From Pseudomonadota bacterium (lineage in GTDB: Bacteria > Pseudomonadota > Gammaproteobacteria > Burkholderiales > Rhodocyclaceae), in the NCBI GenBank assembly GCA_963205435.1, contig CAUJIV010000028.1, forward strand, positions 49,540 to 113,539: DNA of 64,000 nucleotides, written 5' to 3'. Numbering within the stretch: the stretch's first letter is position 1; every line of letters begins with the position of its first letter. This document shows positions 11,234 to 15,104 of this stretch, in pieces. The position numbers and the translations under genes were made by a program. A model generated the notes under the pieces. It searched no databases, had not been told where the DNA came from, and worked only from the letters and a program-made list of their open reading frames with translations.

Positions 11234-12142
11234 TCACTCGCCGCGGTCCCAGTAGGGATCGGGACCGAAGCGCTCGAGCAGGAAGTCGATGAAGGCGCGC
11301 ACCTTGGCCGGCAGATGATGGGTCGGCAGGTAGAGCGCATAGACATGGCGCTCGACCGGGATGTATTCCGACAGCACGGCGCGCAGGCGCCCCGCCTGCA
11401 GTTCCCGGCCGATGATGAAGGTGGGCAGCAGGGCCAGCCCCAGTCCGCCGAGCACGGCCTGCGACAGGGCCTCGTCGTCGTTGATGCGCAGCCGGCCCGA
11501 CACCGGCACGGCGATGTCGCCCTCCGGCCCGGTGAAGCGCCACAGCCCCTGCTCGCCGGAATGGGTGTAGTCGAGGCAGTTGTGGCCGGCGAGGTCCTGC
11601 GGGATGCGCGGCACGCCATGCCGCTCGAAATACTCGGGCGTCGCGCACAGCCGTCGCCGCACCGGCGCCAGGCGGCGCGCCACCAGGCTGGCGGGCAGGT
11701 CGCGGGCGACGCGCACGACGACGTCGTAGCCTTCCTCGGCCAGATGGACGGGCCGATCGGCGACGGTCATGTCGATGTCCAGCTCGGGGTAGCGGGCGAG
11801 GAACTCGGCCAGCGCCGGCGCCACGTGCAGGGTGCCGAAGGCCACCGAAGCGGCCAGCTTGAGCACGCCGCGCGGCTGCGCGTGCAGGCTGCTTGCCACC
11901 TGCTCGGCGCGCACCGCCTCGTCGAGGATGCGGCTGCAATGCTCGGCGTAGGCGGCGCCGACTTCGGTCATGCTCAGGTGCCGCGTGCTGCGGTTGAGCA
12001 GGCGGGCGCCGAGGGACTTCTCCAGCTTGGCCACGGCCTTGCTCACGGCCGAGCGCGACATGCCGAGCCGACGCGCCGCGGCGGCAAAGCTGCCGCCCTC
12101 GACGACATGGGCATAGACGGCCATGAGATTCAGGTCCTGCAT
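11234..12142 (-). CDS. LysR family transcriptional regulator
   Basis: MQDLNLMAVYAHVVEGGSFAAAARRLGMSRSAVSKAVAKLEKSLGARLLNRSTRHLSMTEVG helix-turn-helix. Confidence 0.95.
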   Translation of the reverse strand: MQDLNLMAVYAHVVEGGSFAAAARRLGMSRSAVSKAVAKLEKSLGARLLNRSTRHLSMTEVGAAYAEHCSRILDEAVRAEQVASSLHAQPRGVLKLAASVAFGTLHVAPALAEFLARYPELDIDMTVADRPVHLAEEGYDVVVRVARDLPASLVARRLAPVRRRLCATPEYFERHGVPRIPQDLAGHNCLDYTHSGEQGLWRFTGPEGDIAVPVSGRLRINDDEALSQAVLGGLGLALLPTFIIGRELQAGRLRAVLSEYIPVERHVYALYLPTHHLPAKVRAFIDFLLERFGPDPYWDRGE

Positions 12143-12146
12143 GGTT

Positions 12147-12162
12147 TGATTGTAGCCAATCA
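12147..12162. promoter_or_regulatory. candidate LysR operator (inverted repeat)
   Basis: TGATTG-TAGC-CAATCA perfect 6-bp arms just upstream of the lysR start. Confidence 0.4.
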
Positions 12163-12172
12163 GGCAACAGTC

Positions 12173-12201
12173 TTGTTCTGAGACGCTTTCTTATCTAGAA
12201 T
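12173..12201 (+). promoter_or_regulatory. sigma70-like promoter reading toward nspC
   Basis: TTGTTC - 17 nt - TAGAAT; divergent from lysR, about 500 nt upstream of nspC. Confidence 0.5.
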
Positions 12202-12362
12202 CTCTCCTGCTTCTACCATTGGAAGCTGGCCCTTGGCCAATCGGGTCAGGGGTTCCGGCTGCCACGAAGGGTTGCACTGCGCGGGGGGAGGCCCCCTGCC
12301 ATTCGGGACTGTCCGAGAGGTTTTCGGGCTTTTTGCAGCATCTGCTGGTTGGAGAGGACGCC

Positions 12363-12430
12363 ATGTCAAGCGACGCCCTGTTCCAATTGGGGATAGTTTC
12401 AGTCTGTCTGAACGGCTCCCAAACGGACAT
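12363..12430 (+). other. candidate structured RNA element in nspC leader
   Basis: Nested complementary arms ATGTC/GACAT, TTGGG/CCCAA, TTCAG/CTGAA with 5-nt apical loop TCTGT; non-coding context. Confidence 0.3.
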
Positions 12431-12703
12431 TTTGCCTAGCCGGCCTTCGGTGACGGCACGCTACCCGTTGCGCAAGCCGGCGCGAAGCGCCACAGCCGCC
12501 ATGCGCCGTTCGGCGCGTCGCGGCATGAAGAGCGACCTGCCGCCGCCAACCTGCCCCGACCCCATCCGGCGAAATCCCTCGCTGCCCGAGCGGCAGCGGC
12601 ATTCCTGAAACATTGCCGGGGTTCGCCGCCCGCCCGTTCCGGCCAGCGCCACCGCCAGGGCGCGCTGCCGGCTCCGCGGCGCAGGCTGCCGACCCTGGAC
12701 GTC

Positions 12704-13810
12704 ATGACCGACATGATCCGGACACCCTATTACCTCATCGACAAGGCCCGCCTGCAGGACAACCTGAGGCGCATCGACGCCTTGCGCAAGGCTTCCGGCG
12801 CGAAGGTGCTGCTGGCGCTGAAATGCTTCGCCGCCTGGTCGGTGTTCGACCTGATGCGCGAGCACATGGACGGCACCACCTCCTCCTCGCTCAACGAGGT
12901 GCGGCTGGGGCGCGAGAAATTCGGCGGTGAGACGCATGCCTACAGCGTCGCCTGGGCCGAGCACGAGATCGGCGAGGCCGCGGATCTCGCCGACAAGGTG
13001 ATCTTCAACAGCCTCGGCCAGCTCGAGCGCCATGCCGCGCGCGTTGCCGGCAAGCCGGTCGGGCTGCGCCTCAATCCGGGCGTCAGCGCCTCGGCCTTCG
13101 ATCTCGCCGACCCGGCGCGTCCCTTCAGCCGGCTCGGCGAGCATGACGCCGGCCGGGTGGCGGCGGCGATCGGGCGCATCGACGGCTTCATGATCCACAA
13201 CAACTGCGAGAACGACGACTTCGAGCGCTTCGACGCGCTGCTGGGCGAGGCCGAGGCGCGCTTCGGCGCGCTGTTCGCGCAGGTGCGCTGGATCAGCCTC
13301 GGCGGCGGCATCGCCTTCACCGCGCCCGGCTATCCGCTCGAGCGGCTCGCCGCGCGGCTGCGCGACTTCGCCGCCCGCCACGGCGTGCAGGTCTATCTCG
13401 AGCCCGGCGAGGCGGCGGTGAACGACTGCGCCAGCCTGGAAGTCACGGTGCTCGACACGCCGGACAACGGCAAGCCGCTGGCGGTGGTGGACGCCTCGAC
13501 CGAGGCGCACATGCTCGACCTGCTGATCTACCGCGAAAACGCGCGCATCGAGCCGGACGCCGGGCCGCACCGCTACCTCGTCTGCGGCCGCTCCTGCCTC
13601 GCCGGCGACGTCTTCGGCGAGTTCGCCTTCCCGGCGCCGCTGCAACCCGGCAGCCGCCTTTCGATCCGCAACGCCGCCGGCTACACCATGGTCAAGAAGA
13701 ACTGGTTCAACGGCCTCGCCATGCCGGCCATCGCCGTGCGGGAAACCGACGGCAGCGAGCGCCTGGTGCGCAGCTTCTCGTACCGGGAATATGCCAACAG
13801 CCTTTCGTGA
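12704..13810 (+). CDS. nspC: carboxynorspermidine decarboxylase
   Basis: MTDMIRTPYYLIDKARLQDNLRRIDALRKASGAKVLLALKCFAAWSVFDLMREHMDGTTSSSLNEVRLG; ALR/ODC-like PLP fold with LVCGRSCLAGDVFGEF. Confidence 0.93.
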   Translation: MTDMIRTPYYLIDKARLQDNLRRIDALRKASGAKVLLALKCFAAWSVFDLMREHMDGTTSSSLNEVRLGREKFGGETHAYSVAWAEHEIGEAADLADKVIFNSLGQLERHAARVAGKPVGLRLNPGVSASAFDLADPARPFSRLGEHDAGRVAAAIGRIDGFMIHNNCENDDFERFDALLGEAEARFGALFAQVRWISLGGGIAFTAPGYPLERLAARLRDFAARHGVQVYLEPGEAAVNDCASLEVTVLDTPDNGKPLAVVDASTEAHMLDLLIYRENARIEPDAGPHRYLVCGRSCLAGDVFGEFAFPAPLQPGSRLSIRNAAGYTMVKKNWFNGLAMPAIAVRETDGSERLVRSFSYREYANSLS

Positions 13811-13844
13811 CCAGCGAACGCTTTCAAGGGGGAGGGACACCAGC

Positions 13845-15104
13845 ATGAAGCGCAACATCCTGATCATCGGCGCCGGCGGCGTCGCCCATGTCGCCGCCCA
13901 CAAGCTCGCCCGCAACTGCGCGACATTCAGCGAGCTGCACATCGCCACGCGCACGCCGCGCAAGGCCGAGGCCATCATCGCCTCGATCCGCGCGCGCGGT
14001 GGCCAGCGCGCCCTGCCCGAGATGCGCGCGCACGCCCTCGACGCCTTCGACATTGCCGCCACCCAGGCGCTGATCCGCGCCAGCGGCGCCGGCATCGTGC
14101 TCAACCTCGGCTCGGCCTTCCTCAACATGCCGGTGCTCGAGGCCTGCCTCGCCACCGGCGCCGCCTACATCGACACGGCCATCCACGAAGAGCCGCGGCG
14201 GATCTGCGAGCAACCGCCGTGGTACGCCAACCACGAATGGAAGCGCCGCGAGGCCTGCGCCGAAGCCGGCGTCACCGCCATTCTCGGCGCCGGCTTCGAC
14301 CCCGGCGTCGTCAATGCCTACGCCCGCCTGGCGGCCGACGAGTTTTTCGACCGCATCGACTCGATCGACATCATCGACATCAACGCCGGCAGCCACGGCC
14401 GCTATTTCGCCACCAACTTCGACCCGGAAATCAATTTCCGCGAGTTCACCGGCACCGTCTGGTCCTGGCAGGGCGGCCACTGGCGCAGTGCCAGGATGTT
14501 CGAGCACCGGCGCGAGTGGGAGCTGCCCGTGGTCGGCCGCCAGGTCACCTACCTGACCGGCCACGACGAGCTGCACTCCCTCTCGCAGCACCTCGACGTG
14601 CCCGACATCCGCTTCTGGATGAGCTTCAGCGACCACTACATCAACGTGTTCACCGTGCTGAAGAACCTCGGCCTCCTCTCCGAGCAGCCGGTGCGCACCG
14701 CCGAGGGGCTGGAGGTAGTGCCACTGAAGGTGGTCAAGGCGGTGCTGCCCGACCCGTCCTCGCTCGCCGCCGGCTACACCGGCAAGACCTGCATCGGCAA
14801 CCTGGTACGCGGCGTCAGGAACGGCCGGCCGCGCGAGATCTTCCTCTACAACATCGCCGACCACGCCCGCAGCTACCGCGAGGTCGGCAGCCAGGCGATC
14901 GCCTACACGGCCGGCGTGCCGGCGGCGGCGGCGGCGCTGCTGGTGGCGCAGGGCGACTGGGACGTGCGCCGCATGGCCAACGTCGAGCAACTGCCGGCGC
15001 GCCCCTTCCTCGACCTGGTGGCCGAGCTCGGCCTGGAGACCCAGGTGCGCGAAGGCGGCCAGGACAAGCCGGTGGCCGTCGCCCGCGCCCGCGCGGCGGC
15101 CTGA
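13845..15104 (+). CDS. saccharopine dehydrogenase family protein, probable carboxynorspermidine synthase/dehydrogenase
   Basis: MKRNILIIGAGGVAHVAAHKLARNCATFSELHIATRTPRKAEAI; adjacent to nspC. Confidence 0.92.
   Translation: MKRNILIIGAGGVAHVAAHKLARNCATFSELHIATRTPRKAEAIIASIRARGGQRALPEMRAHALDAFDIAATQALIRASGAGIVLNLGSAFLNMPVLEACLATGAAYIDTAIHEEPRRICEQPPWYANHEWKRREACAEAGVTAILGAGFDPGVVNAYARLAADEFFDRIDSIDIIDINAGSHGRYFATNFDPEINFREFTGTVWSWQGGHWRSARMFEHRREWELPVVGRQVTYLTGHDELHSLSQHLDVPDIRFWMSFSDHYINVFTVLKNLGLLSEQPVRTAEGLEVVPLKVVKAVLPDPSSLAAGYTGKTCIGNLVRGVRNGRPREIFLYNIADHARSYREVGSQAIAYTAGVPAAAAALLVAQGDWDVRRMANVEQLPARPFLDLVAELGLETQVREGGQDKPVAVARARAAA

Follow-up and report, generated by a model that had tools for sequence, protein, structure and literature searches.

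A conserved leader element of nspC and speD genes suggests a common control of spermidine production

What occupies the long non-coding gap between lysR and nspC in a bacterium of the Rhodocyclaceae, and does it control the genes that follow? The gap lies on contig CAUJIV010000028.1 of assembly GCA_963205435.1, within the 64,000-nt stretch of DNA analysed here (the window), and its length of 561 nt agrees with the approximately 560 nt given in an earlier note made from the sequence alone. Downstream of it is an operon in which nspC is followed by a dehydrogenase gene (Table 1). The window NspC scores 383.7 bits, slightly under the curated TIGR01047 cut-off of 409, and the dehydrogenase match to NF043000 falls below the cut-off of that family. 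By analogy with S. meliloti (PMC13293326), the decarboxylase may act on carboxyspermidine rather than on carboxynorspermidine.

Table 1. Positions of features at the nspC locus, numbered from the first letter of the window.
Feature	Position	Strand	Basis or remark
lysR	11234-12142	minus	divergent from nspC
Non-coding gap lysR/nspC	12143-12703		561 nt
Candidate promoter TTGTTC-17-TAGAAT	12173-12201	+	inferred from sequence
5′ hairpin GTCCGAGAGGTTTTCGGGC and T-run	12311-12334	+	weak terminator of the earlier note
Conserved speD/nspC leader element (core), ~95 nt	12337-12431	+	alignment A2, covariance model R1
Fold A, arms 12340-12360 / 12374-12394	12340-12394	+	RNAalifold consensus
Shine-Dalgarno (SD) site GGAGAGG of uORF (of speD in speD loci)	12351-12357	+
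uORF, 81 codons, MSSDALFQLGIVSVCLNGSQTDIL...	12363-12608	+	SD and ATG; indel phase in homologues
Fold B, 12379-12391 with 12418-12430, inner hairpin 12395-12402/12408-12416	12379-12430	+	covariation
nspC, carboxynorspermidine/carboxyspermidine decarboxylase	12704-13810	+	TIGR01047, E 6e-115
Carboxy(nor)spermidine dehydrogenase, second gene of operon	13845-15104	+	NF043000, E 1.4e-122; PF03435; PF16653

A search of 60 related genomes and of plasmids revealed one conserved block in this region, at 12311-12450, which shares 86% identity with a congener and, over 56-101 nt, 82-95% with unannotated DNA preceding the nspC genes of Chelatococcus, Shinella and Sinorhizobium sp. BG8. The interval 12203-12310 had no match in the related genomes and plasmids, and the leader delimited by the earlier note is therefore conserved only in part. 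The TGGCC and GGGGG hairpins described there (12219-12305) are both present in the window but unmatched even in G002, the closest relative with the locus, where the same search matched only 12311-12450. From an alignment of 56 sequences (A2), the core of the block has the highly conserved consensus CAUCUGCUGGUUGGRGAGGACGCCAUG...UUCCAAUUGGGGAUG...CCCAAACGGAAGA, and the covariance model R1 finds it in the window with 93.8 bits (E 1.3e-21). Rfam 15, at gathering and relaxed thresholds, gave no relevant match in the window or in the element loci tested, the only hits being to tmRNA at an unrelated place in one locus (L075).

The pattern CTGGTTGGNGAGGANGCCATG matched 96 stretches of GTDB genomes, 80 of which were listed; 76 of those listed are genuine, and the other four (L031, L047, L050, L079) were set aside as unrelated coding matches. 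In the class to which the window's genome belongs, pattern matches other than the window itself carry 2-3 mismatches, as expected by chance, and were also rejected. The nspC gene lies downstream in 43 of the 76 genuine listed loci, with the element approximately 260-530 nt upstream of it; together with three plasmid loci, 46 nspC loci besides the window are known. Candidatus Desulfobacillus denitrificans is among the organisms that have the locus (L037). A further 3 of the 76 run off the contig. In the remaining 30, the element comprises the 5′ UTR and first ~25 codons of speD, identified as such because translation from the element's ATG runs on, in frame, into S-adenosylmethionine decarboxylase (PF02675, 3.3e-34, in the one locus checked with Pfam). 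speD is the key gene of the other spermidine pathway, and one Chelativorans genome carries the element on both genes (L042, L054).

The covariance model extends the speD association. Of 337 alphaproteobacterial genomes, 19 contain the element, and each of the 14 matches that could be checked is directly followed, on the same strand, by a speD match. Weaker matches on further speD genes keep CAUCURCUGG, the SD site and a GGGGAUGGACUUGG-like sequence, with the sequence in between altered. Six alphaproteobacterial speD genes (L208, L218, L219, L226, L228, L232) have diverged leaders that retain CAUCUACUGG, an SD site and, mostly, a GGGGA(UGGACUUGG)-like block, and probably represent, by sequence, a deeper family of the element. 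The earlier note had proposed a structured leader controlling nspC and had named a lack of conservation upstream of other nspC genes as grounds for abandoning the idea. That lack did not materialise, and a conserved, structured leader that controls nspC has strong support: the element precedes the 46 other nspC genes, recurs on speD, and has covarying stems. The link to polyamines is strengthened by these data, since the element is common to two non-homologous genes of spermidine synthesis. No speD is detectable in the window's own genome (~85% complete), so that here the element serves nspC.

The SD site and ATG (12351-12365), the uORF that begins there and the match to speD all went unmentioned in the earlier note. 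The SD consensus, GGRGAGG, is invariant in the alignment; most of the loci were found with a search pattern that included it, but several relatives found by the covariance model keep it too. The ATG that starts SpeD in speD loci opens, in nspC leaders, a uORF of 47-117 codons that ends approximately 95-240 nt before nspC; the 81-codon uORF of the window gave no match to a protein family. In Rhizobiaceae-type leaders, 8 of 10 alignment gaps within the uORF are multiples of three, and the other two (1 and 14) are a single gap of 15 that has been split; in the spacer behind the uORF, only 8 of 34 gaps are multiples of three. Most of these uORFs also retain the same C-terminal end although their lengths vary. 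Conserved start, ribosome-binding site, in-frame stop and a reading frame under selection were thus all found, and comparison shows the uORF of nspC leaders to be protein-coding. There is also an excess at third codon positions in the uORF tail (529 versus 367 and 320), which comes from non-independent pairs and is reversed in three betaproteobacterial sequences; for these reasons it is treated as suggestive, and the indel phase is relied on instead.

Two further observations concern the uORF. In Sinorhizobium sp. BG8 (L023, 4001-4090), CCCCC stands where relatives have CCCCCC and the uORF stops after 23 codons, while another frame downstream still reads like the peptide of the relatives; this single case could reflect recent decay, a sequencing error or frameshifting. 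A programmed frameshift, considered on the basis of this locus, was dropped because the other homologues all read in one frame. In addition, a second conserved hairpin, CAGCGCC-AA-GGCGCTG, which codes for NSAKAL, lies near the uORF end in L022 and its relatives and occurs in Rhizobiaceae- and Phyllobacteriaceae-type nspC leaders.

Several features of the alignment suggest that the RNA itself is conserved. The bases before the ATG are conserved, but most of that block lay in the search pattern; codons 8-10 lie outside it. All 56 sequences have CAA as codon 8 and GGG as codon 10, and 45 have TTG as codon 9, although these triplets make up 9.7% (CAA), 9.3% (GGG) and 4.4% (TTG) of synonyms in the same nspC genes. 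Where codon 9 changes from TTG to TCG (Leu to Ser), a downstream CAA becomes CGA (Gln to Arg), which amounts to a switch from a U-A to a C-G base pair with a U-G intermediate. The inner hairpin alternates among UCAG/CUGA, CUUGG/CCAAG and GCGC/GCGC types. Covariation in the proposed stems exceeds that of all 500 shuffles and all slid controls. Under a tree-based null, two inner-hairpin and two stem-B pairs rank tenth or better out of all column pairs; the best tree-corrected pair has E = 0.18 over all pairs, or ~0.002 by our own scaling when proposed pairs only are counted. We regard this as moderate statistical support for the stems. As far as comparison of homologues can tell, the rare codons and base-pair covariation show that the element is under selection at the RNA level. 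Of the nested stems in the earlier note, TTGGG/CCCAA and TTCAG/CTGAA are accordingly present, conserved and covarying; the outer ATGTC/GACAT pairing is not conserved, and homologues carry GGAAGA in its place.

The conserved segments can be arranged in two mutually exclusive folds that compete for the same middle segment. Fold A pairs CAUCU.CUGGUUGGRGAGG with CCUCUUCCAAUUGGGGAUG, burying the SD site and leaving the ATG in a loop; 99.4% of its alignment cells are paired, yet the stem is almost invariant, and covariation is uninformative for it. In Fold B, UCUUCC..UUGGG is matched to CCCAA..GGAAGA, which leaves the SD site free. Under strict constraints, which replaced a looser Fold B constraint that had let hybrid structures form, the mean difference between the folds is 0.00 kcal/mol (sd 1.7, n=58), with 53 sequences within 3 kcal/mol. 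For the window the values are -25.2 (Fold A) and -23.0 kcal/mol (Fold B), the outer stem of Fold B being reduced there to 3 pairs. The folds are therefore predicted to be equally stable, which is a computed property and not an observed switch. The window core folds no better than its shuffles (z -0.19), and single-sequence folding in general is mostly no better either, so that folding energy is not evidence by itself. The element does have the alternation expected of a translational riboswitch, with one fold hiding and the other freeing the SD site, as computed structures with partial covariation support.

From these comparisons, it seems reasonably probable that the core is a cis-acting leader and translational switch that provides feedback on spermidine synthesis, in nspC leaders by way of the uORF. 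The balance between folds would be set by the status of the spermidine pathway, through a polyamine or precursor sensed directly or via a protein, and low spermidine would lead to high translation from the shared ATG. On speD, the enzyme would be controlled directly. On nspC, translation of the uORF would be controlled, and its loss would lower expression of nspC and the dehydrogenase gene. The expression platform is most likely translational, involving SD sequestration that acts through the uORF. The weakest step is the connection from uORF to nspC, for which the simplest link would be exposure of an untranslated, C-rich leader to Rho; this choice is made because C-rich, G-poor stretches exceed the coding-sequence average in 38 of 46 nspC loci. 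Counting against the model are the several nspC lineages that do without the element, the distance of 95-240 nt between uORF end and nspC, across which coupling would have to act, and the frameshifted uORF of L023, as well as the near-invariance of the Fold A stem, the E value of 0.18 for the best tree-corrected pair, the shuffle-level folding of the window and its short outer stem in Fold B.

A narrower form of this explanation, to which we give some credence while doubting it overall, is that the RNA is a true riboswitch, with direct binding of spermidine or some other metabolite of the pathway driving the shift between the folds. Its two isoenergetic, mutually exclusive structures, its invariant bases in both unpaired and paired positions and its attachment to two non-homologous genes of one pathway all suit such a function, but an aptamer would be expected to have a larger and more elaborate core, and the related speF RNA bound none of the metabolites tested (PMC1273637). 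It is unlikely, if conceivable, that translation is repressed, or one of the folds stabilised, by a regulatory protein bound to the element. Invariant bases in small hairpins are a usual mark of protein targets and the element acts on two genes, but autogenous control by SpeD is improbable in a genome in which speD is undetectable. Even less inviting is the notion that the nascent peptide MSxDALFQLGM... acts as sensor by stalling the ribosome in response to a polyamine: the N-terminal DALFQ is conserved and the reading frame kept, but residues are given up to preserve base pairs (Leu-Ser with Gln-Arg), those of the inner hairpin are lost or exchanged freely, and the same codons start the full enzyme in speD. 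Finally, the element does encode the SpeD N-terminus in speD loci and might be conserved for that alone, persisting before nspC as a functionless relic; this is very improbable, given that nspC genes without any SpeD domain keep it in alpha- and betaproteobacteria, together with its 5′ UTR, rare codons, covariation and uORF frame.

Upstream of the element, less of the earlier interpretation survives. The CCGA..TCGG hairpin and T-run at 12311-12334 exist in sequence, and are terminator-like only at chance level (1 such site in 11500-14500 versus 1.5 expected). The hairpin matches in position a 5′ hairpin that often directly precedes the element in homologues, where the mean score is 12.3 versus 6.7 in shuffles, individually significant in 18 of 56. 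An sRNA running from ~12203 to this hairpin and T-run is scarcely credible, as the hairpin is at chance level, the closest relative with the locus does not conserve 12203-12310, many homologues lack the T-run after the corresponding hairpin, and the conserved block begins at this place and runs on past it rather than ending there. Attenuation by an intrinsic terminator likewise finds no conserved terminator before nspC, the sole site being the chance-level one upstream of the element.

The TTGTTC-17-TAGAAT sequence was confirmed at its reported position, and a stricter consensus sigma-70 scan found no site. Many homologues have a TATAAG/TACAAT-like box ~30-40 nt before CATCTG; the window lacks a box at that place, which leaves 12173-12201 as its best promoter candidate. 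Homology between the window's TAGAAT and the TACAAT of a relative could not be established by alignment. Adjacent to lysR, 33-36 nt (12143-12178, the TTGTAGCCAATCAGGCAACAGTCTTGTTC region) containing the inverted repeat GATTG-TAGC-CAATC are 92-100% identical in five congeners without nspC, and by their sequence are probably the lysR operator/promoter. The proposed -35 box lies at the edge of this segment, and the nspC cassette may thus have been joined there.

The nspC gene is present in 2 of 16 genomes of the window's genus, both with the element, and the pair of nspC and dehydrogenase genes (12704-15104) occurs sporadically, in these 2 of 16 and in 14 of 300 genomes of Burkholderiales; this patchy occurrence suggests horizontal spread. 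One Burkholderiales NspC (L153) clusters with that of Chelatococcus. Among NspC proteins the element is clustered, requiring 5 changes versus 17.4 in shuffles. It is present in a betaproteobacterial clade and in early branches of an alphaproteobacterial clade and absent from several nested lineages, a pattern consistent with early gain and later losses. No element was found at nspC in S. meliloti, S. medicae, Paracoccus ferrooxidans, Salipiger abyssi, Alloyangia pacifica, Pseudochrobactrum sp. XF203, Neorhizobium sp. SOG26, Ensifer sp. PDNC004 and Agrobacterium salinitolerans. The element, diverged forms included, is far more widespread on speD, which makes capture by nspC the simpler direction, and most likely the nspC operon took over a speD leader with its first ~25 codons.

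Comparisons can be made with known leaders of polyamine genes. The speF RNA (RF00518) is located upstream of ornithine decarboxylase (Corbino et al., 2005; PMC1273637) and is likewise an extended, structured leader of a gene for polyamine synthesis in Alphaproteobacteria, but it lacks meaningful sequence similarity to the element and resides at other loci of the same genomes: its covariance model matches neither the window nor any of 22 element loci tested, and finds RF00518 elsewhere in genomes G616 and G839. The odc1 (uORF-25-1) motif, in which a pair of almost adjacent UUG starts and a uORF of fixed length (11 residues) directly precede ornithine decarboxylase (PMC8632094), shares with the element its occurrence in Alphaproteobacteria, a polyamine gene, a sequestered ribosome-binding site and a conserved uORF. 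The element differs in its ATG, its 47-117-residue uORF and a start 260-530 nt from nspC, and does not belong to that motif. A variant SAM-I riboswitch for spermidine is also a leader RNA on spermidine genes including speD (PMC10853860), but has a SAM-I architecture that the element does not match. Rfam models of the SAM family gave no match to the element at gathering or relaxed thresholds. Mammalian and plant AdoMetDC uORFs respond to polyamines through their peptide sequence, and in enterobacteria the SpeFL uORF peptide senses ornithine by ribosome stalling. These resemble the element in controlling polyamine enzymes through uORFs, but belong to other lineages and are peptide sensors, whereas in the element RNA pairing overrides peptide sequence.

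To our knowledge, few convincing natural polyamine-sensing RNAs exist, and how spermidine is balanced in most Gram-negative bacteria is largely an open question. Openly searchable literature on speD and nspC leaders yielded no description of the element, and an earlier one may exist. Because it overlaps the speD coding start, the element may have escaped searches confined to intergenic regions. The element might represent a novel riboswitch class of the polyamine pathway, extending across the start codon, that controls speD in many Alphaproteobacteria, was captured with its first codons by the nspC operon, where it would work through a uORF, and spread with that operon to Betaproteobacteria, a possibility that we hold only tentatively. 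It looks like a regulatory element on the move from gene to gene, taking along a stretch of coding sequence that thereby turned into a uORF. Overall, the data suggest a previously undescribed common control of spermidine production: a single element on speD and nspC, non-homologous genes of alternative pathways, indicates that the signal is what the two have in common, the end product or the pathway, and yields a directly testable model.
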